Origin: Neotamlana sargassicola
Lineage (GTDB): Bacteria > Bacteroidota > Bacteroidia > Flavobacteriales > Flavobacteriaceae
Length of the DNA stretch: 64,000 nucleotides
Direction: 5' to 3'
Assembly: GCF_020523965.1 (NCBI RefSeq)
Contig: NZ_JAJAPX010000002.1
Location: forward strand, 248,001-312,000
The stretch's first letter is position 1; every line of letters begins with the position of its first letter. Under the pieces are notes generated by a model that saw only the letters and a list, made by a program, of their open reading frames with translations, was not told the origin of the DNA and searched no databases. The position numbers and the translations under genes were made by a program. Of this stretch, positions 40,845 to 55,945 are shown in pieces.

Positions 40845-42147
40845 GTTTTTATATATTTTATTATTGTTTTGCCCAATTTTAAAGGCTCAAGAGTTATTAA
40901 CGCCAAGTAAGGCCGTTAGCTTAGCTTTAGAAAATAATTATGGAATAAAGGTGGCTAACAGTAACTTAGAAATTGCAAAAAATAATGCCGATATTTTAAA
41001 TTCAGGTTACTTGCCAACCCTTACAGGCGTTGCAGGAGGTTCCATAAACAAGCAAAATTCCGAAGGTCAATTAGCTAGTGGAGAAGTTAGGGTAGCTAAC
41101 GGTGCCGAAACTAGAAATTACAATGCCTCTGTAAATTTAAATTATACTTTGTTTGATGGTTTAGGGCGCATGTACGATTATAAACAGTTAAAACAAACAC
41201 GTGATTTAACCGAATTGCAAGCCCGCGAAACTATAGAAAATACCATAATTCAATTGTTTGCTGTTTACTATAGTGTTGCCGAGTTAGAAGAAAACACCAA
41301 TGCGATTAAAGAAACCCTGCAAATATCTAAAGAAAGGTTAGTTCGAGCTCAATATCAGTTTGATTATGGGCAATCTACAAAGTTAGAAGTATTAAATGCC
41401 GAAGTAGATATAAATAACGACAGTATTAGTGTTATGAATTCGAATCAAGAATTAATAAACTTTAAGCGCGATTTAAATCTAGTTTTAGGGAATAGCATTA
41501 CCGAAAATTTTAATGTAGATACCACCATTAATTTTAACCAGTTGTTAAATAAAGACGAATTATTTAATAAAGCAAAAACCTATAATAATAGCTTGTTACA
41601 ATTAAATAAAAGTATTGAAATTAATAAGTTAACTGTAAAATCTGAAACATCGGCCTATTTACCAACCATTGGTTTAACAGGTAGTTACGGTTGGAATGAA
41701 ACTACAAATAATAGTCCGTTGGCTTTTGTGCTTCAAAATACGAATACTGGTGTATCTGGCGGAATTAATTTAACATGGAATTTATTTGATGGTGGTAGCA
41801 CCATAACAAGTGTAAAGAATGCCAAAATTAATCTTGATATTCAAAATATTCAAAAAGAAGAATTGCTTGTAACTTTAGAGCGGGATTTTAACAACGCTTG
41901 GGACGATTATCAAAACAAGCTAAATATTTATCATTTGCAAGAAGCTAATATTGCGACTTCGCAAAATAACTTCCATAGAACTCAGGAAAAATTTAAACTT
42001 GGGCAAGCAACGTCTATAGAGTTTAGGCAGGCGCAAATAAATTTATTAAACGCAGAGTTAACGAGAAACAGTGCCAAGTACGATGCCAAAATAGCCGAAC
42101 TCCAATTGTTGCAATTAAGTGGTGAAATATTGAATGTTAACTTCTAA
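40825..42147 (+). CDS. TolC family outer-membrane efflux channel
   Basis: A 440-residue TolC-like protein with a signal peptide and two similar halves of long helices and beta-strands (for example ALENNYGIKVANSNLEIAKNNADI, then AKINLDIQNIQKEELLVTLERDFNNAWDDY). The frame starts at 40825 inside the pump gene; the ATG at 40834 (MNTKFLYILLLF) fits the signal peptide better. It completes the three-gene efflux operon. Confidence 0.92.
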   Translation: MKPMNTKFLYILLLFCPILKAQELLTPSKAVSLALENNYGIKVANSNLEIAKNNADILNSGYLPTLTGVAGGSINKQNSEGQLASGEVRVANGAETRNYNASVNLNYTLFDGLGRMYDYKQLKQTRDLTELQARETIENTIIQLFAVYYSVAELEENTNAIKETLQISKERLVRAQYQFDYGQSTKLEVLNAEVDINNDSISVMNSNQELINFKRDLNLVLGNSITENFNVDTTINFNQLLNKDELFNKAKTYNNSLLQLNKSIEINKLTVKSETSAYLPTIGLTGSYGWNETTNNSPLAFVLQNTNTGVSGGINLTWNLFDGGSTITSVKNAKINLDIQNIQKEELLVTLERDFNNAWDDYQNKLNIYHLQEANIATSQNNFHRTQEKFKLGQATSIEFRQAQINLLNAELTRNSAKYDAKIAELQLLQLSGEILNVNF

Positions 42148-42302
42148 AAACCAGCGAAATACTCGTTAAAATACAGTTTATCTTAAAAATATGTATTTCA
42201 ACGATGTTAAAATGTTAAAATTTAGTGGTGTTTGTCGGAAATATTAACAATTAATCGAGGTCTCTTGTATCTTCGTAGTGTGTTAATCCAAATCTAACAT
42301 CT

Positions 42303-43127
42303 ATGAAAACTTTAAATTTAACTTTCGCCTTTATTTTTGCAACCTTTTATTCGTTTGCAAATGTATCAACTTCAGAAAAAGAAGCTTTATTAGCTATTTA
42401 CAATGCAACCAATGGTTCACAATGGAACGTGACTTGGGATTTAAATGCATCTGTTTCCAACTGGTACGGTGTAACTATTGAAAACGATAAAGTGGTAGAA
42501 TTAAATTTACAGTTTAACAATTTAGAAGGTGAGTTGCCAAATGAAATTGGAAGTTTGGTTAATCTTAAAAAAATCAATCTTGGTTTTAATAAAATTTCAG
42601 GAACTATTCCTAGTTCAATTCAAAATTTAGAAGAATTAGTTAATTTAGAATTGTTTATGAATAGATTTGAAGGTGAAATTCCAGTAGAGTTAGGGAGTTT
42701 AACTAAGTTAGAATCGTTAAAGTTATACAGTAACCAATTAACAGGCGAAATACCATTAAGTTTAATGGATTTAGTTAATTTGAAAGAATTGTTATTAGGT
42801 AGTAACTTTTTAACTGGAGAAATACCTTTAGAAATTAGTGCGCTAGAGAAATTACAAAAGTTAAGTTTAATGGATAACCAAATGTATGGTGAAATTCCAG
42901 TTGAATTAGCACAACTAAAAGATTTAGAAGAGTTACTATTATCTACAAACCAGTTTACCGGTGATATGCCAATGGAGTTTTTAAGTCACCAAAAGTTAAA
43001 CACAGTAATGGTAAGTGATAATAATTTAAATGAAGAATACGTTACAATATCGGGTAAAAACCCGCCTGCATTAGGTGTTTTACAAATAGAGAACGCAACG
43101 GCAACAATGGATATTGAAAAAGAATAA
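42303..43127 (+). CDS. Secreted leucine-rich-repeat protein (plant-type LRRs)
   Basis: A 274-residue protein with a signal peptide (to about residue 19) and an N-terminal capping region like that of plant LRR proteins (EKEALLAIYNATNGSQWNVTWDL). Eight tandem 24-residue repeats follow with pattern LxxLxLxxNxLxGxIPxxLxxLxx. The GxIP pattern is the plant-type subclass. There is no type IX C-terminal domain. It is likely a surface or periplasmic binding protein; the partner is unknown. TATCTTCG at 42268-42275 may be its -7 element. Confidence 0.88.
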   Translation: MKTLNLTFAFIFATFYSFANVSTSEKEALLAIYNATNGSQWNVTWDLNASVSNWYGVTIENDKVVELNLQFNNLEGELPNEIGSLVNLKKINLGFNKISGTIPSSIQNLEELVNLELFMNRFEGEIPVELGSLTKLESLKLYSNQLTGEIPLSLMDLVNLKELLLGSNFLTGEIPLEISALEKLQKLSLMDNQMYGEIPVELAQLKDLEELLLSTNQFTGDMPMEFLSHQKLNTVMVSDNNLNEEYVTISGKNPPALGVLQIENATATMDIEKE

Positions 43128-43151
43128 TTTAAAAGTATTTTATGGTAAAGG

Positions 43152-43185
43152 TAGTCATCAATTTTTTTGATGACTATTTTTTTTA
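43152..43185 (+). terminator. Terminator after LRR protein gene
   Basis: TAGTCATCA (43152-43160) pairs with TGATGACTA (43168-43176), a nine-base stem with a seven-base loop, then TTTTTTTTA. It shows that the next gene starts after it (43196) rather than at the ATG at 43142. Confidence 0.85.
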
Positions 43186-43195
43186 CCTTTATTTA

Positions 43196-43378
43196 ATGTT
43201 GGAACAATTTTTTACATGTCCTTATTGCTGGGAAACTATATCTATGTTATTAGATACTTCTGTTTCGCGGCAAACCTATATTGAAGATTGTGAAGTTTGC
43301 TGTAACCCAATACAAATCGAAACTAATTTTTTTAATAAGGAACTTATAGATTTTCAAGCATCTAGCATAGAGCAGTAA
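43196..43378 (+). CDS. CPXCG motif-containing small cysteine-rich protein
   Basis: A 60-residue protein with a CPYC motif (residues 8-11) and a later CEVCC stretch, the CPXCG family's zinc-ribbon-like pair. I begin at the ATG at 43196 because the in-frame 43142 start lies before a terminator hairpin. The function is not known. It stands between the LRR gene and the tRNA gene on the same strand. Confidence 0.85.
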   Translation: MLEQFFTCPYCWETISMLLDTSVSRQTYIEDCEVCCNPIQIETNFFNKELIDFQASSIEQ

Positions 43379-43397
43379 TATTTTTTTAAATTTATTA

Positions 43398-43427
43398 TTG
43401 TAGAATGTAAAAAGGATTGTATATTTG
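43398..43427 (+). promoter_or_regulatory. Promoter for the initiator tRNA
   Basis: TTG (43398-43400), exactly 19 bases, then TATATTTG (43420-43427): a near-perfect match to the Bacteroidota consensus. Transcription should begin near 43433, about 70 bases upstream of the mature tRNA. Confidence 0.75.
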
Positions 43428-43500
43428 CAGTCCGAAACAATTTGGTCGGCATTATGAACCGAAAGTTAGAAGCTAAGAAAAGTTGTTAAAGGATTTATAT

Positions 43501-43573
<73 letters not shown>

Positions 43574-43581
43574 CTACTTTA

Positions 43582-43611
43582 AGGAGATTCAGAAATGAGT
43601 CTCCTTTTTTT
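43582..43611 (+). terminator. Terminator after tRNA-fMet
   Basis: AGGAGA (43582-43587) pairs with TCTCCT (43600-43605), then TTTTTT. The following 43612-43810 shows no gene; it is A/T-rich. Confidence 0.8.
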
Positions 43612-43810
43612 ATGGGTTTAGTTTTTTAATACCATAATTTATTAATTTTCTCGTTGCTACAAATTAATAGCTTCGCTTAAGCTATCAAATCAATACATAC
43701 CCAATAAAATGTAGTATTCAATAGTCCTCAAAAACCTACATTTCATTTATTTCATACAGTTTATAATTCGCATTATTTTATATTTAACTAGGTTAAATAA
43801 ATTATTTCAT

Positions 43811-43840
43811 TATATTTGGTACACCAAATTGGCGCACCAA
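43811..43840 (+). promoter_or_regulatory. PL7 promoter -7 box with two tandem GntR-type operators
   Basis: TATATTTG at 43811-43818 is a -7 element. Two boxes, TTGGTACACCAA (43816-43827) and TTGGCGCACCAA (43829-43840), begin 13 bases apart and overlap the -7 element. The same geometry occurs before susC. They fit binding by the FadR-subfamily regulator encoded at 54350. No convincing -33 TTTG is seen here. Confidence 0.75.
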
Positions 43841-43905
43841 TTTTATTTTAAATAAAAGTCTATTAAGGGTGTTGCTTATATCAACTAATAATTAAATGAG
43901 AAACA

Positions 43906-44970
43906 ATGAGTTATAGTGTTTTTTTTAAGTCTTTAAAATTAAGTGTTTTCCTTAGTTTGCTAATTTGTTTTTCTAGTTGTAAGGATTCCGAAAGAAAGGT
44001 TCAACTAAAGTTAAAGGAAAAGAATGCTCATAAAGCCATATATCCAAGCGACGTTATTCCTTTTATGGATAAATGGAAAATTCTGCTTGGTGATGGTACT
44101 AAATCCGATTCATTAATTGGTTATGCCAAAAGCGATTTTTTTTATGTTGAAAAAGATGGAGAGACCAATTGGGTGGTTTATAAAACACCAAATTCAGGTA
44201 TAACATCCAGAACTTCAAGTAATACCAGAACCGAACTTGGTGAAAAAAGACATTGGATTCCAGAAACGGGCGGGAAGTTAACAGGAACTTTAAAGGTTAT
44301 GCATGTCTCTACATCTGGAGATGCGCGAGTAGCGGCTTCATACTCTGTTGTTGTTGGGCAAATTCATAGCGATGAAGGTCATGAAAACGAACCGTTAAAA
44401 ATATTTTACAAAAAATTTCCAGGGCATACAAAAGGGTCGGTATTCTGGAATTACGAAATTAATACAGCAGGAGATAATGCGAAGCGTTGGGATTTTTCTA
44501 CTGCTGTTTGGGGTAACGATATGTCTGTGGTTGGTAAAACTGCAGACACCTACCCGGACGAGCCAGAAGATGGTATTGCACTTGGTGAAACCTTTAGTTA
44601 CGAAGTAAATGTGCACCAAGGTATTATGTATTTAACTTTTACAAGCGAAGGCCATGAAACCGTTAAGTTTACAAAGAATTTACTAAAATCGGATTTTGCA
44701 ACTAAAGCAGATATTCCAGAACAAATTTTAAACTTATATGCGCCTATTGAACGCGATGGCATTGAGCGCGATTCGGCTTACGCAGGAGAAATTCAATATT
44801 TTAAACAAGGCGCTTACAACCAAACCAACGGAAAAGACCCAGAGAAAAATATAGTTTGGAGTACAGGCTCAGAAACATATGGCGGCGATATTGCAAAACA
44901 ATATGAAAACGGTTGTTATGCCGAAGTTTGGTTTAGCAATGCCACCGTTGGCCCAAGTGAAGCACCATAA
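43906..44970 (+). CDS. Alginate lyase, polysaccharide lyase family 7, lipoprotein
   Basis: A 354-residue lipoprotein (lipobox FSSC, Cys 25) with a PL7 beta-jelly-roll domain. The three PL7 catalytic-site motifs are visible: RTELGE (108-113), QIH (152-154) and YFKQGAYNQ (298-306), giving the Arg, Gln, His and Tyr of the active site. QIH in place of QVH is often linked with preference for guluronate-containing blocks. It likely cuts surface-bound alginate to oligomers. First gene of the alginate locus, under tandem operators. Confidence 0.92.
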   Translation: MSYSVFFKSLKLSVFLSLLICFSSCKDSERKVQLKLKEKNAHKAIYPSDVIPFMDKWKILLGDGTKSDSLIGYAKSDFFYVEKDGETNWVVYKTPNSGITSRTSSNTRTELGEKRHWIPETGGKLTGTLKVMHVSTSGDARVAASYSVVVGQIHSDEGHENEPLKIFYKKFPGHTKGSVFWNYEINTAGDNAKRWDFSTAVWGNDMSVVGKTADTYPDEPEDGIALGETFSYEVNVHQGIMYLTFTSEGHETVKFTKNLLKSDFATKADIPEQILNLYAPIERDGIERDSAYAGEIQYFKQGAYNQTNGKDPEKNIVWSTGSETYGGDIAKQYENGCYAEVWFSNATVGPSEAP

Positions 44971-44981
44971 TTAACATAGGT

Positions 44982-45467
44982 ATGAATACTGTATTTTATG
45001 TTATGGGTGTGTCTGGTTCTGGAAAAAGTACCGTAGGTAAGCTATTAGCAGAATCTTTAGAAATACCATTTTTTGATGGTGACGATTTTCATCCGAAGGA
45101 AAATATAGAAAAAATGAGCAGCGGTATTCCTTTAAATGATGATGACAGACAAGGCTGGCTATTAACGTTAAATGATTTAGCTAAAAAGGAGTTAAAACAA
45201 AATAGTTGTGTTATTGTTTGTTCGGCTTTAAAAGAAAAATATAGAGAATTGTTAAGTACAACTATTGAAGCTCATGTTAAATGGATTCATTTGGTTGGTT
45301 CATACAATCAAATTTTAGATAGAATGAATAAGCGCGAAAATCATTTTATGTCATCAAGCATGCTTCAGTCGCAATTCGATACATTAGAAGCGCCCGAACG
45401 AGCCATAAATGTGGATATCAATTTAAACCCAAACGACATCATAAAACATATTATAAAACAAATTTGA
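44982..45467 (+). CDS. Gluconokinase-family small-molecule kinase
   Basis: A 161-residue P-loop kinase (GVSGSGKS, 9-16) with the GntK-type sequences FFDGDDFHP and LKEKYRELL. GntK phosphorylates D-gluconate to 6-phosphogluconate. Its place 11 bases after the PL7 gene is unexpected: alginate loci usually carry a ribokinase-fold 2-keto-3-deoxygluconate kinase. It may serve uronate products by another route or phosphorylate a related sugar acid. Substrate is inferred only. Confidence 0.85.
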   Translation: MNTVFYVMGVSGSGKSTVGKLLAESLEIPFFDGDDFHPKENIEKMSSGIPLNDDDRQGWLLTLNDLAKKELKQNSCVIVCSALKEKYRELLSTTIEAHVKWIHLVGSYNQILDRMNKRENHFMSSSMLQSQFDTLEAPERAINVDINLNPNDIIKHIIKQI

Positions 45468-45553
45468 ATTTAAAATTAAGCAATCTTATATAAGTCACCA
45501 CCTTATGTCTGCTTAAAGTTCAAAAAATAACCAACAAACTAAATAAGTATAAC

Positions 45554-46831
45554 ATGTCTGAAACTGTTCAAAAAAAATCACTTTTAAAAAAAATAATAGC
45601 CCTGGTACTAAGTTTTGGTCCGGGTATTTTTGCAATAGGTTATACTATTGGAACCGGAAGTGTAACATCGATGATAGTAGCCGGAAGTAAGTACAATATG
45701 CAATTACTTTGGGTGTTATTACTAAGTTGTTTGTTTTCTGGGGTTTTAATGTTTGTATATGGTAATTATGCTTTAATAACAGGCGAAACGGCTCTTTATG
45801 GTTTTAAAAAGCATTTAAAGTACGGAAAAGCTTTAGCGATATTAATTATTGTAGGCATTACATTTGGGCAATGGAATTCCTTAATGGGTATTTTAGGAAT
45901 TTCTTCCAATATTATTTACGAAATATTAGCTATAAATTATCAAGGTTTAGAAGGCTTAAAATACGAAACCGTTTTAGTTACCGCTATTGTAATTATTGTT
46001 GTTTTCTATTTACTAATGTTAGTTGGTAAGTACACGTTTTTCGAAAAAATACTAGTCATTTTTGTTACTTTAATGGGGCTTTCGTTTGTATTGTCCTTGT
46101 GTTTAGTGCAACCTTTACCACTTGATGTTGTTAAAGGCTTAATCCCTTCAATTCCTAATGTACCCGACGGTAAAATGTTGGTGGCGGCTTTTGTTGGAAC
46201 AACTATGGCAGCGGCTACATTTTTATCTAGACCTTTATTTGTTAAAGGAAAAGGGTGGACAATTAGTAATTTAAAAGATCAGAAAAAAGATTCTATTACT
46301 GCAGCTATTTTAATATTTGTAATTAGTGGCACTATTATGGCAGTAGCTGCAGGCGCACTATTTTATCAAGGTAAAGAAGTAAATCATGTTTTAGATATGG
46401 CAAATACTTTAGAGCCTGTTGCTGGTAAATGGGCGGTAACTATTTTCTTTTTTGGCGCCTTAAGTGCAGGTTTGTCATCTATTTTTCCATGTTTGTTAAT
46501 TGCTCCTTTATTAATAGCCGATTATCAATCCGGCGAGCTCGATACCAACTCTAAGCAATTCAGGATAATTACAGCAATTGCTTGCTTGGTAGCTTTAATT
46601 GGTCCTGCTTTTGGAGCAAACCCTATCGAAATTCAAATTCTATCACAGGTGTTTAATGTGTTTATATTGCCATTGGTGGTATTAGGCATTATTCTAATGG
46701 TAAATAATAAAAAAATAATGAAAGAATATAAAACATCGTTAGCCATAAATATTGGTTTATTTGCAGCCTTGTTTTTTTCATGCCTAGTGTCGTATACAGG
46801 TGTGGTAGGAATTATGACTAAATATTTTTAA
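45554..46831 (+). CDS. Nramp-family-like transporter lacking the metal signature
   Basis: A 425-residue membrane protein with about eleven helices. The first helix has FGPGIFAIGYTIGTGSVTSM, clearly Nramp-like, but the metal motif DPGN is replaced by IGTGS (32-36), and the later MPH motif of helix 6 is replaced in VGTTMAAATF (214-223). It therefore probably does not carry divalent metals. In an alginate locus a plausible job is the uptake of an organic acid such as an unsaturated uronate or KDG, or a cation-coupled step, in place of an MFS transporter. This is inference; the fold assignment is firmer than the substrate. Confidence 0.78.
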   Translation: MSETVQKKSLLKKIIALVLSFGPGIFAIGYTIGTGSVTSMIVAGSKYNMQLLWVLLLSCLFSGVLMFVYGNYALITGETALYGFKKHLKYGKALAILIIVGITFGQWNSLMGILGISSNIIYEILAINYQGLEGLKYETVLVTAIVIIVVFYLLMLVGKYTFFEKILVIFVTLMGLSFVLSLCLVQPLPLDVVKGLIPSIPNVPDGKMLVAAFVGTTMAAATFLSRPLFVKGKGWTISNLKDQKKDSITAAILIFVISGTIMAVAAGALFYQGKEVNHVLDMANTLEPVAGKWAVTIFFFGALSAGLSSIFPCLLIAPLLIADYQSGELDTNSKQFRIITAIACLVALIGPAFGANPIEIQILSQVFNVFILPLVVLGIILMVNNKKIMKEYKTSLAINIGLFAALFFSCLVSYTGVVGIMTKYF

Positions 46832-46841
46832 AAAAACTTAA

Positions 46842-49187
46842 ATGAAAACTAAACTTAAATTTTCTTTTTTAGCTCTTGCTTTAATCGTCCTTATTTCCTG
46901 TAATAAAAAGGATGAAAATAGTAGTTCAAATGATGTGTTGGTAAACGATTTATCGGAGTTTAACAATGCCGTAAAACAAGCAAAACCAGGAGATGTTATA
47001 ACATTAGCTAATGGTGTTTGGAAAGATGCAGAACTAGTATTTGAAGGTAGAGGAACCAAAGACAAACCGATTACGTTAACCGTTGAAACTAAAGGAGAAG
47101 TTACCTTAGAAGGCAATTCAAACTTACAACTTGCAGGCGAATATTTAATTGTAGATGGCTTGGTGTTTAAAAACGGATATACACCAACAAATGCTGTAAT
47201 TTCTTTTAGAAAAAGCCGAGAGGAAATGGCAAACAATAGCAGATTAACCAATTGTGTTATCGATAATTATAATAATCCAGAACGTCAAGTGCAAGATTAT
47301 TGGATTACTATTTATGGTAAAAATAATCGAATAGACCATAACCATATTGTCGGTAAGAAAAACTTAGGGGTAACTATGATTGTTGGTTTAGATACCAAGG
47401 AGAGCAGAGCCAATCATCATAAAATAGATCATAATTATTTTGGCCCAAGACCAACTTACGGGAATAATGGTGGAGAAACTTTAAGAATAGGAACAAGTCA
47501 TCATGCTTTAGAGAACTCGAATACACTAGTAGAATCTAATTATTTTGATAGAACCAATGGCGAGCATGAAATTATTTCGAATAAAGCTTGCCAAAACACA
47601 TTTAAATACAACACATTTTTTGAGTGTACAGGAACCTTAACCATGCGTCATGGAAACGAAACCTTAGTAGATGGCAATGTATTTATTGGTAACGGAAAAC
47701 CAAGCACAGGTGGAGTTCGTGTAATAAACGAAACACAAACGGTAATAAATAACTATCATATTGGCTTAACAGGCTACCGCTTTAGAGGCGCTTTTGTAAT
47801 GATGAATGGTGTGCCTAATTCGCCACCAAATCGTTATGTTCCGGTAATCAATTCCAAAGTTAATAATAACACATTTATAAACTGCGACCACATTCAATTA
47901 TGTGCAGGTAGCGATGCCGAACGAAGTACAGCTCCAAAGACGTCCGAAATTTCTAATAATGTGTTTTATCATGAATCTAAGTCCGATTTGTTTACCGTTT
48001 ACGATGATATTAGTGGAATAACATTTAAAGATAACATTTTAGGAAATAATTTAAAACCACTTTTAAAAGATGGATTTACAAATGCCGAAATTAAATTAGT
48101 AAAAAACGATCAAGGGTTTTTAATACCAACATCCAATGCGATAAAGCCTATTTCAATTAGTCCAAAAATTGCAACAAAAGAAAATACTGGCGTTTCGTGG
48201 TATTCAAAAGATGATGAGGCTGTTGCGTTAAATTCGGGAAGTATAATTAAAGTCAACCCCGGAATTAATACCTTATACGATATTGTTAAAACATCGAAAG
48301 CGGGTGATATTATTGAGCTAGAAGAAGACGGAGAGTATTTAATAACTAAAGCGGTTACAGTAAATCATCCGTTAACTTTTAAAACAATAGGAGAGAAAAA
48401 GGCAACTATTTTATTTGAACGTATGATGGCTTTCGAAATACAAAATGGAGGAAGTTTAGAATTAGAAAACGTGTCGTTCGACGGATCAAAATCACCCGAC
48501 TATGCAGGTAATTCGGTAATAAGTACCAGTAAAAACTCCATGATAGAAAATTACAAGCTTTTTATAAATAATTGTGAGTTTAAAGATATGGTTGTAAACC
48601 ACTCTTTTGATGTGCTTCGTGTTTCAAAAGGCACATTTGCCGATACAATAAGCATTCAAAATTCAACATTTAAAAATATTTCAGGTCATATCGCTGCTTT
48701 AGATAAAGAAACTGATGATATTGGTGCATATAACGTAGAGTATTTTATAATGAAAAATAATGTTGTAACAGATTTGCAAGGGGCTGCTTTAAGGTTGTAT
48801 AGAGGTGGTAAAGACGAAAGTACTTTTGGCCCATTTTTGGAGGTAGACCATAATGTTTTTAATAATGTAGGTTTTGGTAAAAAGAATAAATATGATGCCG
48901 CCATGTCACTTTATGGTGTGCAAGTAAATACTATTGAAAACAATATTTTTAATAATACTAAGGCTTTAAATATGCATTTAGTGGTTGGAGAACCCATAGT
49001 AAATGTTGTTAATAATAACTTCTATAAATCTGATAATATAATTGTCACAGGCGATCAAAAATATAACGTTAAAAATAGCTGGAATTATAATCCTGAATTT
49101 AATAAAAACAGTTTTCAGCTTAACGAAAATTCGCCGTTAATAGGAAAGGCGACAGATGGCTCCAACTTGGGAGTTTTAAAAAATTGA
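46842..49187 (+). CDS. Polysaccharide lyase family 6 (alginate lyase / chondroitinase B type)
   Basis: A 781-residue lipoprotein (lipobox LISC, Cys 20). Residues 30-400 form a right-handed parallel beta-helix of PL6 type with the Lys-Arg catalytic pair in SNKAC (K248) and MRHG (R269). A second beta-helix region (about 450-780) follows, as in two-domain PL6 enzymes. PL6 enzymes act on alginate, often poly-MG or oligomers. It follows the transporter by ten bases and precedes a strong terminator. Confidence 0.92.
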   Translation: MKTKLKFSFLALALIVLISCNKKDENSSSNDVLVNDLSEFNNAVKQAKPGDVITLANGVWKDAELVFEGRGTKDKPITLTVETKGEVTLEGNSNLQLAGEYLIVDGLVFKNGYTPTNAVISFRKSREEMANNSRLTNCVIDNYNNPERQVQDYWITIYGKNNRIDHNHIVGKKNLGVTMIVGLDTKESRANHHKIDHNYFGPRPTYGNNGGETLRIGTSHHALENSNTLVESNYFDRTNGEHEIISNKACQNTFKYNTFFECTGTLTMRHGNETLVDGNVFIGNGKPSTGGVRVINETQTVINNYHIGLTGYRFRGAFVMMNGVPNSPPNRYVPVINSKVNNNTFINCDHIQLCAGSDAERSTAPKTSEISNNVFYHESKSDLFTVYDDISGITFKDNILGNNLKPLLKDGFTNAEIKLVKNDQGFLIPTSNAIKPISISPKIATKENTGVSWYSKDDEAVALNSGSIIKVNPGINTLYDIVKTSKAGDIIELEEDGEYLITKAVTVNHPLTFKTIGEKKATILFERMMAFEIQNGGSLELENVSFDGSKSPDYAGNSVISTSKNSMIENYKLFINNCEFKDMVVNHSFDVLRVSKGTFADTISIQNSTFKNISGHIAALDKETDDIGAYNVEYFIMKNNVVTDLQGAALRLYRGGKDESTFGPFLEVDHNVFNNVGFGKKNKYDAAMSLYGVQVNTIENNIFNNTKALNMHLVVGEPIVNVVNNNFYKSDNIIVTGDQKYNVKNSWNYNPEFNKNSFQLNENSPLIGKATDGSNLGVLKN

Positions 49188-49219
49188 TAATATAAGTTTA
49201 GTTTAATATTGGTTTTAAT

Positions 49220-49256
49220 CCTAGGGGTTTATTTTTTGTAAATCTCTAGGGTTTTT
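49220..49256 (+). terminator. Terminator ending the PL7-kinase-transporter-PL6 operon
   Basis: CCTAGGGGTTTA (49220-49231) pairs with TAAATCTCTAGG (49239-49250), twelve pairs including two wobbles, then GTTTTTG. It separates this operon from the susC promoter. Confidence 0.85.
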
Positions 49257-49321
49257 GATTTATACGGGTTAATTAATTGATTTTTAGTTTTTTATAAAAG
49301 TTAAAAATTTCATAAAAAAAT

Positions 49322-49387
49322 TTTGAAGCTATATTTTAAAATCATATATTTGGTGCACCAATTTGGTGTGCCAGTTTGGTGTACCAA
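49322..49387 (+). promoter_or_regulatory. susC promoter with three tandem GntR-type operators
   Basis: TTTG (49322-49325), 19 bases, TATATTTG (49345-49352) is an ideal Bacteroidota promoter. Three boxes start 13 bases apart: TTGGTGCACCAA (49350, perfect palindrome), TTGGTGTGCCAG (49363) and TTGGTGTACCAA (49376). The first overlaps the -7 element and the others lie over the start of transcription, so occupancy should block initiation. Confidence 0.82.
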
Positions 49388-49623
49388 ATAAATTAAAACT
49401 AAAAACTAAATTAAAGTAAGATATTATGAAAAAAAACTGCACCTGAAGAATTCACTTATAAGCCCAATTTTTTTGGCTAAGTGTAATTTGAATTACCTTC
49501 TATTTTTTTGTGTTAAAAATAAAATATCAGACTCCTAAAAATAATTGCGAGTTCAATAGATTTTAATTTGAATTAACAAACAAGAACAATTTAAAAATTA
49601 CTAATAACTAAATAAATCATTAA
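49388..49623 (+). other. Long susC leader with mini-ORF and hairpin
   Basis: About 240 bases separate the operators from the susC start. They hold a seven-codon frame (49426-49446, ATG then eight A residues, MKKNCT, stop TGA), followed by a hairpin with stem CACTT...AGCC/GGCT...AAGTG (49453-49483). The rest is A/T-rich with no gene. It might be a regulatory leader or the remnant of a frame; neither is settled by sequence. Confidence 0.4.
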
Positions 49624-52600
49624 ATGAATTTGAAAATGAAATTAAGCTTATGGCTAATTTTGGTATTTAATATATCAATATTTGCGCAAGTCGGATATCA
49701 AATATCCGGAGTGGTAATAGACGAAGCGGGAATGCCAATTCCTGGAGTGAATGTTATAGTTGCAAACACCACAACTGGTACAGCAACCGATTTTGATGGT
49801 CAGTTTCAACTGGCGGTGTCGAACGGAGACGTTTTAAAGTTTTCTTATATAGGTTACATTAGTCAAAGTGTTAACGTAACTGGGCAAAAATCAATTGAAG
49901 TAACATTAAAAGAAGATGCCAGTACTTTAGACGAAGTAGTGGTTGTAGGTTATGGAGCTCGTAAAAAATCACATTTAACAGGAGCTATTGCAAAAGTTGG
50001 TGGAGACGAGGTAGCGGCGGTACAGGCTGCTCGTGTAGACGATGCTTTAGCAGGTAAGTTACCAGGGGTTTTAATTCAAAACCAAAGTGGTGAACCAGGA
50101 GCCGATCCTAAAATTCAAATTAGAGCTGCTTCTTCAGTATCTGGAGATTCTAGTCCTTTAATTGTGGTAGATGGTTTTCCTATTTCAGGAAGTTTAGCAA
50201 CAGTAAACCCTAACGACATTCAAAGTATGGAAGTGCTTAAAGATGCTGCTTCTGCTGCTATTTATGGGTCGCGTGGTGCAAATGGGGTTATTTTAATTAC
50301 TACTAAAAAAGGTAAAGCAGGTAAAACAACTTTTAGTTATAATGCCTACACAAGTTTTTCTAGTAAGTATCGCGATAATTTATTATTAACTTCTGGTGAA
50401 TGGGCAGATATTATAGATACGAATATTGCAAACGGAACGTTCGATGTTTCTGAAGTGGAACAAGATGTACCTGGTTTAATAGATTATAGAATTAATGCTT
50501 ATAGAAATTCTCCAGATGTTGTTGCTGTTGAAGATTGGTTATTTCAAAACGGACATACGCAAAGTCATGATTTTAGCATGAGTGGTGGTACTGAAAATGT
50601 GAATTTTTTCGCATCAATGGGGTATCAAAACACCGAAGGTATTGTGCAAACGCAAGGGTTTGAAAAATTAAATGCAAGACTTAATGTTGATGCTAAATTA
50701 GGTGATAAGTTTAAAGCGGGTTTAAGCTTTAATGGTTTTACTTCAGATAGAGATATAGTTGCTCACGATATGAGAGATTTAATGAGGGCTTACAGTATTT
50801 CTCCAATTTATCATACAGAAGAATCTATAGCATTTGTACAACAATTAGATGCACAAGCAACTGCTTTAGGGTTAAATAGACAATGGTTTAGTGATGGTGA
50901 CGATTATACGACTGTTACTGATCCAACAACTTTCGATGCTGGTGCCCGAGGAACTTTGGGGCTAGAGCCATCGAGTATATTCGATTTACAACCAGGAGAT
51001 TTTGCACACGATTGGCATTATGGTAGACGTGGTAATGGTATTGGTGGTTCTGGTGATGCTGGTCCTGCAGCAAAACTAGATAATGCAAAGCAATGGCAAA
51101 AAACCTATTATGCGAACATTAGTTCATATATCCAATACGAAATATTAGAAGGTTTAACCCTTAAAACCGTATTAGGTGGAGATTTAAACGATACTCAAGA
51201 TTATTACTACCAAGGTGTAATTGCAGATTCAAGAGAACGTTTAAACCAAACTGATTTAGACCAAACCGATTTAAAACGTTTTTCATACTTAAGTGAAACT
51301 ACTTTAAGTTATGCAAAAGTATTTGGTAAGCACGATGTTTCTGCTGTGGCAGGTTTCGAATTTCAAAATACTTATTTTAAAGGAACTTCTTTAAACGCTA
51401 CAAACGTGCCATTTGGAGATATCATAAACTACAATTTATTAGCTCCAGAAGATATTACAGTAACCGAAAGAGACGAAACTAGAACCAGACGCAGTGTTTT
51501 TGGTAGAGTTAACTATGCTTACGATAACCGCTACTTAGCTTCTGTTTCTGTAAGACGAGATGGCGATTCAAGATTTGGTGTTAACAAACGTTTCGAAACA
51601 TTTCCAGCACTTTCTGTAGGTTGGAACGTTCATAACGAAGCGTTTTGGGGAGACGATTTTGCAATGAGCTTATTAAAATTAAGATTTAGTACAGGTTCTT
51701 TAGGTACTACGTCATTCTTAGGGTCTTACGATTCTTTAAGTTTATTATCAGACACCAGCACTACAGTATTTGGTACGGCTTATTTATTACCAGATAATGT
51801 AGCTAATCCAGATTTAACATGGCAAACTAATACAGAAACTAACTATGGTATCGATTTAGGTTTTGTTAACAATAGATTTCGTTTAAGTGTAGATTACTAT
51901 ACTTCAGATATTGAAGATATGCTAATTAACCAAAGTGTTTCAGAAGTTTTAGGAACACCTTCAATTGTATTAAACACAGGAGATGTAAGAAGTTCGGGTG
52001 TAGAATTTGAAGCATCTGCAAGTATTGTAAATACTCAAGATTTCTCATGGAGTGTATCTGGAAACTTATCTACTGTTAATACAGAAATTACAGATTTAGG
52101 AGGTTTAGAGAGTTTACCGGATCAAATTTACGGACAAAGTGGTAGAGGGCCAGTATTTAGAAACTATGTAGGTGGAGAAATTGGTGAAATGTGGGGTCTA
52201 GAAACTATCGGCGAAGTAGAAATGGAACATGTTTACGACCCTACAGCTAATATAGGAATTACTAGTGGCGAATATTATGTTGTAGATCAAGATGGCGATG
52301 GTGATATCGATTCTGATGATTATGTTAAAATTGGTCAAAATACACCAGATTTTTACTGGGGTTTCAACACGAATTTAAGATATAAAAACTTTGATTTAGC
52401 AATGCAATTCCAAGGAGCTCAAGGTGGTGATGTTTATAACATCGATCCATTATATTATAACTCTCAATGGGGTGGAAGACTACGAGCAAGTTTTGATGCA
52501 GATAATGATGGTATTGCCGATCATAACGGACAATTTTATGACAGAGCTCGTGACCAAACAGATGCTTTAGTTCAAGATGCGTCGTATATTGCACTTCGTA

Positions 52601-52842
52601 ATATTACCTTAGGGTATACCATTAACTCGCAATTAATGAGTAAAATTGGTGCTAGTTCGGCTAGAGTTTATGCCGCTGCAACGAACCTTTTATATATCAT
52701 GGCAGATAATTATACATCATATAACCCAGAGGGTATTAATATGAGTGGTAGTGATTACGCAGGACCAACAACTTCGGGAACTCAAGTAGGAGAAAGCCCA
52801 GTAGTAAGAAGTTTTACACTTGGTTTAAACCTTAATTTTTAA
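49624..52842 (+). CDS. susC: SusC-type TonB-dependent oligosaccharide receptor, alginate locus
   Basis: A 1072-residue outer-membrane importer: signal peptide to about residue 22, carboxypeptidase-like domain (25-110), then DEVVVVGYGARKK and plug, and a barrel ending SFTLGLNLNF. Sequence runs such as GVILITTKKGKAGK and AASAAIYGSRGANG are SusC-family hallmarks. It lacks an N-terminal STN domain, consistent with regulation by the cytosolic GntR protein rather than ECF sigma factors. The start may be at 49624 or the ATG at 49636. Confidence 0.94.
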   Translation: MNLKMKLSLWLILVFNISIFAQVGYQISGVVIDEAGMPIPGVNVIVANTTTGTATDFDGQFQLAVSNGDVLKFSYIGYISQSVNVTGQKSIEVTLKEDASTLDEVVVVGYGARKKSHLTGAIAKVGGDEVAAVQAARVDDALAGKLPGVLIQNQSGEPGADPKIQIRAASSVSGDSSPLIVVDGFPISGSLATVNPNDIQSMEVLKDAASAAIYGSRGANGVILITTKKGKAGKTTFSYNAYTSFSSKYRDNLLLTSGEWADIIDTNIANGTFDVSEVEQDVPGLIDYRINAYRNSPDVVAVEDWLFQNGHTQSHDFSMSGGTENVNFFASMGYQNTEGIVQTQGFEKLNARLNVDAKLGDKFKAGLSFNGFTSDRDIVAHDMRDLMRAYSISPIYHTEESIAFVQQLDAQATALGLNRQWFSDGDDYTTVTDPTTFDAGARGTLGLEPSSIFDLQPGDFAHDWHYGRRGNGIGGSGDAGPAAKLDNAKQWQKTYYANISSYIQYEILEGLTLKTVLGGDLNDTQDYYYQGVIADSRERLNQTDLDQTDLKRFSYLSETTLSYAKVFGKHDVSAVAGFEFQNTYFKGTSLNATNVPFGDIINYNLLAPEDITVTERDETRTRRSVFGRVNYAYDNRYLASVSVRRDGDSRFGVNKRFETFPALSVGWNVHNEAFWGDDFAMSLLKLRFSTGSLGTTSFLGSYDSLSLLSDTSTTVFGTAYLLPDNVANPDLTWQTNTETNYGIDLGFVNNRFRLSVDYYTSDIEDMLINQSVSEVLGTPSIVLNTGDVRSSGVEFEASASIVNTQDFSWSVSGNLSTVNTEITDLGGLESLPDQIYGQSGRGPVFRNYVGGEIGEMWGLETIGEVEMEHVYDPTANIGITSGEYYVVDQDGDGDIDSDDYVKIGQNTPDFYWGFNTNLRYKNFDLAMQFQGAQGGDVYNIDPLYYNSQWGGRLRASFDADNDGIADHNGQFYDRARDQTDALVQDASYIALRNITLGYTINSQLMSKIGASSARVYAAATNLLYIMADNYTSYNPEGINMSGSDYAGPTTSGTQVGESPVVRSFTLGLNLNF

Positions 52843-52852
52843 TTAAAAAAAA

Positions 52853-54172
52853 ATGAAAAGAATATATATCATATTATTAGCATCGCTAGTACTTACTACA
52901 GCGTGCAACAACGATTTGGACCAGTTTCCAGATAATATTGCAAGTTCCGACTCTTTAACTAATTTTGAAAGTGTTTTATACGCTGCATATTTTTATCAAT
53001 TAGGAGGAGCAACACCAATGGCGGTAATGGGCGATTTTAGAGCAGATAATGCCTTAATGCAAGAGGCTCCTTATACAGACTTCGATGAGTATAACTCGAG
53101 TTTAGTGTCAATGGAAGATCAATTTTTTGGTCCTTTTTATACAGCAATGTATAAGTCTATTTTAAGTGCAAATATTGTTATTGAAAACTCAGAAGATAGT
53201 TCTGATATTGCAGAAGCTAAGTTTTTACGCGCCTTATCTTATTTTAAATTGGTTCGTGTATTTGGTGGTGTAACTATAAATTTGTCTGATGCTCCAAGTA
53301 CAACAGATACCTCTATTTTAGAAAGAGCTTCATCAGCCGATGTTTATGCTCAAGTAGTTGCAGATTTAATGGATGCTATTGCTGGTTTAGACAATTCTGA
53401 AATTTCAACCGGGCGTGCATCGCAACTTGCAGCACAAGCTTTATTAGGAAAAGTGTATGTGCAAATGGGAGAATTTGGTAGTGCAGAAACCTATTTAGCG
53501 GCAGCAGTAAATGCAGCATCTGGAGCTGGAATAAGTTTACAAGCAAGTTTCTCTGATATTTTTGGTTCTGCCAACGATTTAAATTCTGAAATAATTTTTG
53601 CTTCTCAAGTATCTAGTTCTATAGCAGATGAATACACGTTTGCTTCAGAGTTTACCGATTGGTATTCTGGTGGCGATACGAAATCGCAACAACCGTTAGA
53701 TTCAGATTTAGCAGATGCTTTCGACGCTGCTGGAGACACAACCAGAAAAGATTTAACCATCGATGGAGCAACTTGTATTAAGTACGGGGGTGCCGATCCA
53801 GATCAAGATTGGATAGAATTAAGATTAGCAGATGTAATCTTGTTATACGCAGAAACTTTAAATGAAAATAATAATGCTTCAGGTGCACAATCTGCAACTA
53901 TTTTAGCATTGTTAGATGATATTAGAACACGTGCCGGATTAGCCAGTTTAGTGGGTACGGCAACCTCACAAGATGACGTAAGAGATGCTATTTTAAACGA
54001 AAGACGTTTAGAGTTAGCTTTCGAAGGTCAACGTTGGTTCGATTTGGTAAGAACAGGAACAGTTAACGAAGAAATGGGAGAAACAATTAGTAGCGATTAT
54101 TATCTATTCCCTTTACCTGTTTCAGAAATAAATTCAACAAACGGGGTAATAACTCAAAATTCGGGTTATTAG
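52853..54172 (+). CDS. susD: SusD-type surface glycan-binding lipoprotein, alginate locus
   Basis: A 439-residue lipoprotein (lipobox TTAC near residue 18) with SusD/RagB features: EAKFLRALSYFKLVRVFGGV in the N-terminal half, a TPR-like scaffold, and the C-terminal ILNERRLELAFEGQRWFDLVRTG segment. It caps the SusC barrel and delivers alginate oligomers. The stop of susC is ten bases upstream. It is slightly shorter than many SusD proteins, as in other alginate loci. Confidence 0.93.
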   Translation: MKRIYIILLASLVLTTACNNDLDQFPDNIASSDSLTNFESVLYAAYFYQLGGATPMAVMGDFRADNALMQEAPYTDFDEYNSSLVSMEDQFFGPFYTAMYKSILSANIVIENSEDSSDIAEAKFLRALSYFKLVRVFGGVTINLSDAPSTTDTSILERASSADVYAQVVADLMDAIAGLDNSEISTGRASQLAAQALLGKVYVQMGEFGSAETYLAAAVNAASGAGISLQASFSDIFGSANDLNSEIIFASQVSSSIADEYTFASEFTDWYSGGDTKSQQPLDSDLADAFDAAGDTTRKDLTIDGATCIKYGGADPDQDWIELRLADVILLYAETLNENNNASGAQSATILALLDDIRTRAGLASLVGTATSQDDVRDAILNERRLELAFEGQRWFDLVRTGTVNEEMGETISSDYYLFPLPVSEINSTNGVITQNSGY

Positions 54173-54227
54173 ACTTGAAAATTTAGCTTGATTTATTTTA
54201 GAATATCGAGTTAGTTTAGTTTTTATT

Positions 54228-54270
54228 GGCTAGCCAGCATTGTTATTGTGGTTTTTGTTGGTTAGCCTTT
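54228..54270 (+). terminator. Weak terminator-like hairpin after susD
   Basis: GGCTAGCCA (54228-54236) can pair with TGGTTAGCC (54259-54267) with one wobble across a 22-base loop, then TTT. The long loop makes it uncertain. Confidence 0.35.
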
Positions 54271-54321
54271 AAATTTAGCTTTGAATTCCATTAGAATTTG
54301 AATAGTTTTACTTAATTTTAA

Positions 54322-54333
54322 CTGGTGTACCAA
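54322..54333 (+). promoter_or_regulatory. Single GntR-type operator before its regulator gene
   Basis: CTGGTGTACCAA differs from the susC box by one base. It lies 17 bases before the regulator's start codon; a half-match TTGTGTTCCAA ends at the start codon. It suggests autoregulation. Confidence 0.65.
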
Positions 54334-54349
54334 TTTTATTTGTGTTCCA

Positions 54350-55075
54350 ATGAATTTAGAGATTATATCTAAAAATGAAAATCAAGAGATAACGAGTAGA
54401 GTAAATAAAATTATTGCTCAAATTAGTGATTTAATAAGTCAGAAACATTTACAGCCAGGAGATAAACTTCCAGCTGAAAGAATTTTGGCAGAAAAATTTG
54501 AAGTAAGTAGAAGGTCTTTACGAGTTGCGATTTTAAAATTAGAATCTTACGGAATTTTGGTTTCCATGCCTCAAAGTGGCACTTTTATAGCTAATATTGG
54601 TTCTATTGCTATGCAAGGAATGATTGAAGATATTTTAAGTTTGGGTCTTCCAGATTTTAAATCTTTAGTCGAAACAAGAATTTTGTTAGAACTTAAGGCA
54701 GTTAGGTTAGCGGCATTAAGACGAACTGATGATGATTTAGCAAGAATAAAAGAAGCTTTAGATGCTCATGAAACAAAATTGCGATCTGGTGAAGATGCCG
54801 TTCAAGAAGATTTATTATTTCATTTAGCTATTGCAAAAGCAAGTGGCAATGTTACCATGAATAAAATTATGATTGGTATAACACCTCAAATAATTGTTGA
54901 TTTTAAAAAGTATCATAAAGATTATGACTCACTAGACGAGTTAAGAATTATAGAACATGCTGAGATTTATGAGGCTATAAAAGAAAAAAATCCGCAACTA
55001 GCTAAAGATAAAATGAAAAAACATTTTGCAATGTTATATAAATATTGTTACGATATTGCCGAGGATGTATTTTAA
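54350..55075 (+). CDS. GntR family, FadR-subfamily transcriptional regulator of alginate use
   Basis: A 241-residue regulator with an N-terminal winged helix (LQPGDKLPAERILAEKFEVS, 37-56) and a C-terminal FCD ligand domain (HLAIAKASGN then FAMLYKYC at the end). FadR-type regulators bind TNGTNNNACNA-like palindromes, close to the TTGGT-NN-ACCAA boxes found here. It corresponds in type and context to AusR, a GntR repressor of alginate genes in Zobellia. Ligand is likely an alginate breakdown product. It precedes the SDR gene by 37 bases. Confidence 0.9.
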   Translation: MNLEIISKNENQEITSRVNKIIAQISDLISQKHLQPGDKLPAERILAEKFEVSRRSLRVAILKLESYGILVSMPQSGTFIANIGSIAMQGMIEDILSLGLPDFKSLVETRILLELKAVRLAALRRTDDDLARIKEALDAHETKLRSGEDAVQEDLLFHLAIAKASGNVTMNKIMIGITPQIIVDFKKYHKDYDSLDELRIIEHAEIYEAIKEKNPQLAKDKMKKHFAMLYKYCYDIAEDVF

Positions 55076-55112
55076 AATAAAAAGTAAAACAATTCAATTT
55101 ATAAAATAAGAA

Positions 55113-55868
55113 ATGGGAAAATTAGATGGTAAAGTAGCTGTAGTAACTGGTGGAGCAAGAGATATAGGTCGCTCTATTTGTGTGAAATTAGCACAAGAAG
55201 GCGCCAAAGTAGTTGTAAACTATTTAAACAGCGAAAAAGATAGAGATACAACTTTAGAGGCTATTAAGGCTGTTGGAGGCGAAGCTATTGCAGTTTATGG
55301 CGACGTAACTAAACAAGCAGATATCGATGATATGGTTGCTAAAACTAAAGCTGCTTTTGGCGATAAAGTGGATATTTTAGTAAATAATGCTGGTGGTTTG
55401 TTTGGTAGAAGAACAGCCGAAGAATTAGATGAAGATTTTTATAACCTTGTAATGGGAGTTAATTTTAAAGGAACTGTTTTTGTTACTCAAGCTTTTAAAG
55501 CTTTAATGAGCGAAGGTGCATCAATAGTAAATTTAGCTTCACAAGCAGGTCGCGATGGCGGTGGTGGAGGTTCGGTGTTATATGCTGCATCAAAAGGTGC
55601 GATTATGACATTAACTCGTAACTGGGCTAAAGAGTTCGGGCCACAAGGTATTCGTATAAACGCAGTTTGCCCTGGGTTAATTGGAACAAAATTTCACGAC
55701 GATTTTACACAAGATGAAGTTAGGGTAAAAGTGGCTGGTGCAACACCGCTTAGAAGAGAGGGACAGCCAAATGAAGTTGCCGATTTGGTGGCTTATTTAG
55801 CTAGTGATGAAGCATCATTTCTTACAGGAAATAATGTAGATATTAATGGTGGTTTAGCATTTAGTTAA
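55113..55868 (+). CDS. Short-chain dehydrogenase, probable DEH reductase of alginate catabolism
   Basis: A 251-residue SDR with NAD(P)-binding TGGARDIG (12-19), NNAG (91-94) and the catalytic Ser143, Tyr157 and Lys161 (YAASK). In alginate loci this family reduces 4-deoxy-L-erythro-5-hexoseulose uronate (DEH) to 2-keto-3-deoxygluconate. The context (lyases, SusCD, AusR-like regulator) supports that substrate, but sequence alone gives only the SDR fold. It closes the alginate locus and is followed by a strong terminator. Confidence 0.86.
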   Translation: MGKLDGKVAVVTGGARDIGRSICVKLAQEGAKVVVNYLNSEKDRDTTLEAIKAVGGEAIAVYGDVTKQADIDDMVAKTKAAFGDKVDILVNNAGGLFGRRTAEELDEDFYNLVMGVNFKGTVFVTQAFKALMSEGASIVNLASQAGRDGGGGGSVLYAASKGAIMTLTRNWAKEFGPQGIRINAVCPGLIGTKFHDDFTQDEVRVKVAGATPLRREGQPNEVADLVAYLASDEASFLTGNNVDINGGLAFS

Positions 55869-55886
55869 TTTCTGTAATTATCTTTT

Positions 55887-55924
55887 TTAAAAGCCCGATA
55901 AGTATTTATAGCTTATCGGGCTTT
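55887..55924. terminator. Bidirectional terminator between SDR and galK
   Basis: AAAAGCCCGATAAG pairs with CTTATCGGGCTTTT, stem 11-14 pairs around a nine-base loop, with A- and T-runs on both flanks. Confidence 0.9.
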
Positions 55925-55945
55925 TTAATTTTATAGGTATAGACG

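Follow-up and report, generated by a model that had tools for sequence, protein, structure and literature searches.

A GTGS-type Nramp relative in an alginate locus of Neotamlana sargassicola as a candidate sugar-acid importer

Nramp-family proteins are generally taken as metal carriers, and the binding motif of canonical members is DxxN-AxxM. Nramp types with other metals are reported to retain the aspartate of transmembrane helix 1 (TM1), NRAT with DxxN-AxxT and NRMT with DxxG-TxxA/T (PMC8806188), and a Mg riboswitch is described as not universal among NRMTs (PMC4072509). Genetic evidence for organic uptake was reported in 2026 for C. glutamicum, which needs PxpT to grow on 5-oxoproline; the authors of that work could not exclude metals (PMC13274462). 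The related YcsG has been renamed MntG for Mn import: its overexpression raised cell Mn, and an mntH mntA ycsG triple mutant was reported to be obtainable only with an extra ycsG copy (PMC10448178). MumT, which shares less than 25% identity with reported Nramps, is described from a urea operon, and its deletion lowered Mn (PMC5050338). Cellier's “orphan” Nramp outgroup is a paraphyletic set of PF01566 proteins with a divergent metal site (PMC10606218), and such proteins have been described as connecting the family with carriers whose substrates are not metals (PMC4072509). In drawings of Alteromonas alginolytic systems, an Nramp gene is labelled “metal-ion transporter” (PMC6431674).

The window analysed here (the whole stretch of 64,000 nucleotides, positions 248,001 to 312,000 of contig NZ_JAJAPX010000002.1, assembly GCF_020523965.1) comes from Neotamlana sargassicola, a member of the Flavobacteriaceae. 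It contains an Nramp-related transporter gene of GTGS type at 45554..46831 on the forward strand, with an ATG start and an ORF of 425 aa. The protein matches PF01566 Nramp with 219 bits (E 1.2e-64; cut-off 29.8) and near-complete profile coverage, and it passes the NCBIfam model Nramp_1, which bears the name “Nramp family divalent metal transporter”, with 87.9 bits versus a cut-off of 50. It is the one Nramp above the PF01566 cut-off in its genome, where two weaker matches lie below the cut-off. Its top sequence match in PDB is NRMT (7qia, E 1.1e-18). A LeuT-type (5+5 inverted-repeat) fold is predicted from PF01566 membership, and a hydropathy count gave 17 overlapping segments. It shares PF01566 and a divergent metal site with the “orphan” outgroup, as far as the published description allows comparison.

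The gene lies in an alginate locus whose genes are all on the forward strand. The run begins with a PL7 alginate lyase (43906..44970; PF08787, 178 bits), followed after 11 bp by a gluconokinase of GntK/IdnK type (44982..45467; TIGR01313, 179.6 bits versus a cut-off of 113.75), which is the only TIGR01313 match in the genome. After the transporter come a PL6-type lyase (46842..49187; Pfam chondroitinase B, PF14592, 394 bits), a SusC-like TonB-dependent receptor (49624..52842; PF07715 plug and PF13715), SusD (52853..54172; PF07980, 104.5 bits), a regulator of GntR-FCD type (54350..55075; PF07729 and PF00392) and an SDR oxidoreductase (55113..55868; PF13561, 204.6 bits), presumably a DEH or sugar-acid reductase. 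A preliminary description, made from the sequence alone, had placed the transporter gene between a sugar-acid kinase and a PL6 lyase with gaps of 86 and 10 bases; both gaps are confirmed, and the kinase can now be named GntK. No pxpABC genes were found at the window locus. A tRNA gene (43501-43573, Rfam) lies directly upstream of the locus and is a possible insertion site of a glycan island.

For comparison, close loci were collected from 17 relatives among 149 family genomes (own genome included), the best 80 of 564 relatives and the window; after removal of 7 sequence duplicates from these 98, 91 distinct close loci remained. They were kept by likeness and are mostly from Flavobacteriaceae, so they are not independent. 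E. coli MntH had a match in 96 of 198 Bacteroidota genomes; the best 20 matches served as controls, and both DPGN and MPH were read in 19 of the 20, the remaining one (L226) giving no such ORF. An alignment of 149 proteins was built from 90 close rows, 25 rows of a group B, an E. coli relative, L198, 20 canonical rows (19 from Bacteroidota and E. coli MntH), 8 of PxpT, 3 of a GPGSLT type and 1 NRMT. The close rows, which include those from the best 80 of 564 relatives, are the window protein and all other distinct close loci except L097, whose called ORF of 324 aa was dropped. Canonical MntH controls of Bacteroidota (L225, L227, L228 and others) are 620-643 aa long in 16 of 19 cases, and the one scanned, from L227, has a C-terminal universal stress protein domain.

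In this alignment D34-P35-G36-N37 of E. coli MntH face G33-T34-G35-S36 of the window protein, whose TM1 reads GPGIFAIGYTIGTGSVTSM, so that GTGS (codons 33-36, 45650..45661, forward strand) takes the place of DPGN. TM6 reads GTTMAAATFLSRP; within it, in codons 215-226 (GTTMAAATFLSR; 46196..46231, forward strand), M209-P210-H211 of MntH are replaced by A219-A220-A221, and His216 by Arg226. G33, S36, A219 and A221 occur in 90 of 90 close rows in place of D34, N37, M209 and H211, and the same rows all have Ile for E112 and Leu for D109 (TM3) and Phe for R327 (TM9), with the neighbouring R328 position staying basic (R or K), so that most charges of the proton path are gone along with the metal-site side chains. 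The canonical rows keep D34, N37, M209, H211, E112 and D109 in 20 of 20 cases and R327 in 19. The preliminary description had DPGN changed to IGTGS and the MPH missing; the loss of both motifs holds throughout the close rows, and the exact four residues at the DPGN position are GTGS. Since GTGS is fixed in all 90 aligned close sequences, the window included, the replacement is not a chance event. Some polar residues of the canonical proteins are still present in the window protein, namely Gln365 (Q353 of E. coli MntH and, by our own mapping, Q378 of DraNramp), Asp246 and Glu164.

Arg226 is a further mark of these proteins. All 90 close rows and all 25 group B rows have it, as do the E. coli relative and L198, whereas it is missing from the canonical (0 of 20), PxpT (0 of 8), GPGSLT (0 of 3) and NRMT (0 of 1) rows. 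Its counterpart in DraNramp, His237, is reported as an inner-gate residue (PMC10185341), and therefore Arg226, which may matter for the substrate, need not contact it.

A tree of 65 rows, drawn without B. subtilis or C. glutamicum sequences, places the GTGS proteins (40 rows, including those of E. coli and L198) on one supported side (100/100). The other supported groups are PxpT (100/99), GPGSLT (100/100) and the canonical Nramps (100/100). NRMT sits on a very long branch outside the GTGS clade, where its placement is unsure, and long joins were flagged by the tree program, including the stem between the GPGSLT and GTGS rows. Support for the alginate group itself is lower (91/74); adjoining it are L185, which is a PL7-PL6 locus, and then L183 and L186. 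Membership of the window protein in a clade marked by GTGS and Arg226, apart from canonical Nramp and PxpT/YcsG, is thus supported at the sequence level, in line with the Nramp-derived group proposed earlier for this motif. Part of group B was sorted by GTGS and one of three search patterns contains it, which brings in some circularity; in a motif-free search, however, GTGS was present in all 10 relatives read at 34-41% identity, and GPGT or GPGS in all 9 read at 25-32% identity.

A role in metal import has to be weighed against these results. The protein might still bring in Mg, Mn or Ca as a cofactor for the kinases and lyases of the locus, a part already suggested for MumT and YcsG in the operons they belong to; this reading draws on its PF01566 membership and its Nramp_1 score, and on the fact that alginate binds calcium. 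YcsG and MumT, which are divergent Nramps in organic-catabolism operons, are moreover reported to raise cell Mn (PMC10448178, PMC5050338), which leaves a metal role some probability. Like the window protein, the PxpT/YcsG type has lost the TM1 aspartate and belongs to an organic-acid operon, and therefore loss of this aspartate alone does not exclude Mn. The two types differ in that the PxpT-type rows of Bacteroidota have GPGTVT and His instead of GTGS and Arg and form a separate supported clade; PxpABC gene clusters, named by NCBIfam on one representative each, occur in 7 of 7 PxpT-type loci. Against metal import, asparagine, methionine and histidine have gone from the close rows together with the TM1 aspartate. 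The magnesium transporter EleNRMT, although the TxxA half of its motif is matched by Thr216 and Ala219, retains aspartate in TM1 and glutamate in TM3, two positions occupied by Gly and Ile in the close rows, and the window protein reads GxxS-TxxA instead of DxxG-TxxA/T.

The surroundings argue in the same direction. No M-box or Mn riboswitch was found by Rfam within 42000-56000 at E up to 1. Around the 19 readable controls, GntK, 6PGD, KdgK, KDPG aldolase and PL6, PL7 or PL17 were found in none within five genes on either side, and SusC-like genes were near 4, an SDR near 1 and a MocA-type gene near 1. Five control-adjacent genes of about 217 aa, picked by size, are repressors of DtxR/MntR type. 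With these five and one from the own genome as blastp queries, MntR-type repressors were found in 7 of 20 control loci (one each) and in 0 of 91 close loci, so a predominance of metal-regulated operons, which the preliminary description had named in advance as evidence against its reading, is not what the survey found. The own genome also has other metal-uptake genes; away from the locus it encodes a metal-binding protein of ZnuA type and a repressor of DtxR/MntR type. The window clade differs from canonical Nramp/MntH (SLC11), with which it shares full-length PF01566, in lacking DPGN, MPH, the TM3 acids and one TM9 arginine and in standing in a context of sugar-acid catabolism with no MntR nearby. 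Continued import of a divalent metal is accordingly judged unlikely, and the motif loss, the clade and the neighbourhoods make an organic substrate, the reading the preliminary description had preferred, the probable one.

Gene labels in the neighbourhoods were assigned by Pfam and NCBIfam on representatives and, for all other loci, by blastp to those at 1e-10, and some of the loci are short contigs. In 56 of the 91 close loci (best 80 of 564 relatives included), GntK and/or 6PGD lies directly upstream of the transporter on the same strand: 47 have a GntK-6PGD fusion, 4 (the window among them) GntK alone, and 5 a separate 6PGD, with GntK one gene earlier in 4 of these 5 and the fifth, L136, being a contig of 4.6 kb. 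The other 35, from the same selection, have neither gene directly upstream. In 20 further close loci the three genes upstream include one for KdgK, KDPG aldolase or PFK, and the arrangement is frequently MFS-SDR-KdgK-(PFK)-KDPG aldolase-Nramp, as in Zobellia, Maribacter and Eudoraea. A PL6, PL7 or PL17 lyase is in view in 67 of the 91 (again with the best 80 of 564). Altogether, 84 of the 91 show at least one of two features, an upstream gene for a sugar-acid kinase, aldolase or PFK and a visible alginate lyase gene, and 7 have neither (L038, L044, L130, L137, L141, L145 and L149). The kinase pairing proposed earlier is thus borne out, with GntK, KdgK and, once in the wider clade, DgoK as partners. 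The fusion is about 628 aa long (L034:7433-9325, on which its domains were identified by Pfam, and 46 other distinct loci) and is common in alginate loci of marine Flavobacteriaceae; a brief literature search found no paper on it.

IdnT, DgoT and ExuT occupy operon slots beside sugar-acid kinase or catabolic genes. GntP, IdnT, DgoT and ExuT belong to families unrelated to Nramp, and the Nramp relatives stand in the same slot beside GntK, DgoK-KDPG aldolase or UxaC-UxuA, which suggests a similar role. From sequence and gene context, we somewhat favour the reading that the window protein is an importer of a gluconate-like six-carbon sugar acid on an Nramp scaffold and no longer handles metals. 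The narrower proposal of gluconate or another plain aldonate as the substrate is tentative, gluconate being preferred for the group with the GntK pairing. In such a scheme, the inner-membrane importer of LeuT type would bring in a six-carbon sugar acid, the likeliest being gluconate or a close aldonate, the neighbouring GntK would phosphorylate it, and in many relatives the 6-phosphogluconate dehydrogenase (6PGD) fused to the kinase would convert the product to ribulose 5-phosphate, forming NADPH. We infer transport itself, and likewise its direction, substrate and driving ion.

The presence of GntP was recorded in 18 related genomes with a close transporter, and in 9 of them GntK adjoins the transporter gene. 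Seven of the 9 paired genomes lack GntP, while all 9 non-paired genomes possess it, in favour of the gluconate-like reading (Fisher p 0.002, without kinship correction and with the test chosen after the loci had been seen). At L040, a non-paired locus, a weak relative of GntK (33%) lies further upstream. The window genome is one of the two exceptions, which counts against that reading, and its GntP lies beside GH3 and a gluconolactonase-like gene.

Uronates or KDG, the substrates named in the preliminary description, fit the same data less well. The transporter could act alongside the MFS protein in the import of KDG, DEH or a further alginate monomer, with a second affinity or anomer, as the frequency of lyases at the close loci might indicate, together with the 20 loci where, in place of GntK, a gene for KdgK, KDPG aldolase or PFK stands shortly before the transporter. 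However, a homologue of the alginate-operon MFS is found in 17 of the 18 genomes (best-match identity 43-100%, with a query taken from one of these genomes), so the transporter is not required as a sole importer. The commonest partner is the gluconokinase, usually fused to 6PGD, and the named activities of this pair do not use KDG; at three loci (L097, L107 and L110) the transporter accompanies GntK-6PGD and no lyase was seen nearby. Import of an alginate monomer is for these reasons improbable, and the candidate that the transporter replaces an absent alginate-monomer importer was rejected on the MFS count. In the own genome, the MFS gene lies in a PL6-SusC-SusD-MFS-SDR-KdgK run at a contig end. 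No KDPG aldolase (PF01081) was found in the own genome assembly, an absence that was given no weight: KdgK is cut off at the ends of contigs C10 and C21, so that an assembly gap may hide the aldolase gene. Two KdgK genes are cut in this way, one that follows UxuA-UxaC and another that belongs to the core alginate operon, and the contig ends share 127 identical bases.

Sugar acids and uronates bind divalent cations, and a carrier of a metal-sugar-acid complex, like the Mg-citrate carriers, would reconcile the Mn reports for divergent Nramps with their organic-operon context. The old metal site, however, keeps no acidic or sulfur ligand, and we regard such a carrier as very improbable compared with import of the sugar acid itself.

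The locus was said earlier to lie under alginate operators, and GntR-type palindromes are indeed present. Allowing at most one mismatch, the palindrome TTGGTNNACCAA has 9 matches in the window versus 2.9 expected, and 0 of 100 shuffles were as high. Five of the nine precede locus genes and a sixth (44928) lies inside PL7. Upstream of PL7-GntK-Nramp-PL6 there are two (43816..43840), TTGGTACACCAA at 43816, which is exact, and TTGGCGCACCAA at 43829 with 1 mismatch; two exact ones, at 49350 and 49376, stand upstream of SusC (49350..49387), and one with a single mismatch (54322..54333) is upstream of the GntR-FCD gene. The copies at 43816, 49350 and 49376 are the only exact ones in the window. The GntR protein is the presumed binder. 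As palindromes stand before PL7, SusC and the regulator, the regulon they mark most likely includes the transporter. In the close loci (best 80 of 564 relatives included), 152 occurrences were counted in 60 of 91, versus 1.6 expected by first-order resampling; the 20 control loci have 2 versus 0.6 expected, 24 group B loci 2 versus 0.2, and 7 PxpT loci 0. The palindrome is found in 57 of the 67 close loci with a lyase in view, which would also suit import of an alginate monomer, and in 3 of the 24 without; it therefore follows the alginate genes and not the transporter, and was rejected as a mark of the latter.

Beyond the alginate group, 28 further GTGS loci (L052-L061, L183, L184, L186-L198 and L274-L276) were read with six genes on either side. 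NagA- or NagB-type genes lie near the transporter in 15 of the 28 and an MPI-cupin gene in 3 (L058, where it is also beside GntP, L060 and L275). In L183, from the sister group, the transporter adjoins DgoK, a KDPG-type aldolase and an SMP-30 lactonase; in L059, which is more distant, it lies between UxaC-SDR and UxuA, L197 has UxaC, and L057 a 2-hydroxyacid dehydrogenase. None of these partner genes was seen in L061, L184, L186, L198, L274 and L276, though L186 has an enolase-superfamily gene. In L189, GH20, GH2 and an SSF symporter stand in the same run. UxaC-SDR-Nramp-UxuA was considered as a recurrent uronate arrangement and rejected, being found at one locus (L059), with the nearest relative found, L274 (71%), lacking it. 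Because wider relatives have NagA/NagB, MPI or no such genes, the substrate of the clade is not one compound.

A near-identical DNA copy of the E. coli GTGS relative was found by DNA match in 546 of 5,426 E. coli genomes. In E. coli SK1144 the gene is flanked on one side by a CoA transferase/enoyl-CoA hydratase pair and on the other by an FAD oxidoreductase, and a LacI-type gene is present. The observation is thus more general than the preliminary description knew. For the clade as a whole, the chances seem evenly balanced that the GTGS/Arg226 proteins are importers of sugars or sugar acids without a metal site, occupying GntP, DgoT or ExuT slots in Bacteroidota glycan loci and the slot of some organic-acid carrier in about one tenth of E. 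coli genomes. A limited literature search found no paper describing the clade as organic carriers, and annotation pipelines name the members examined metal transporters. If the clade moves sugar acids, such annotations would be wrong in marine Bacteroidota and E. coli, and the alginate regulon would gain an unrecognised importer with its own kinase-dehydrogenase fusion. The earlier phrase “new substrate class” was an overstatement, because 5-oxoproline use had been reported to need the Nramp-family PxpT/YcsG (PMC13274462). Should the clade indeed move sugar acids, the dispute over YcsG (5-oxoproline or Mn) would gain a second case, in which the old site has no acidic or sulfur ligand, and the scaffold would offer a direct test of how metal and organic-solute carriers of LeuT type interconvert.

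A further Nramp-related type has GPGSLT in TM1 and Gln at the place of Arg226 (L052:8046-9296, L056:17977-19200 and L199:9183-10487). In all three loci it is followed by two genes of about 340 and 355 aa, and the second of them in L052 has a weak DHDPS match below the cut-off. In E. coli, the GTGS gene is part of an accessory chromosomal operon between dnaB and qorA (L203:2317-9304, NZ_AP018784.2), which consists of a LacI-type regulator, CoA transferase, enoyl-CoA hydratase, the GTGS-type Nramp relative and an FAD oxidoreductase. This GTGS gene is also present in L201:10001-11244 (CP054241.1), where it lacks an annotation and is broken into two frames; this record is labelled an E. coli plasmid, but with its 834 kb and its dnaB, alr and tyrB it resembles a piece of chromosome.
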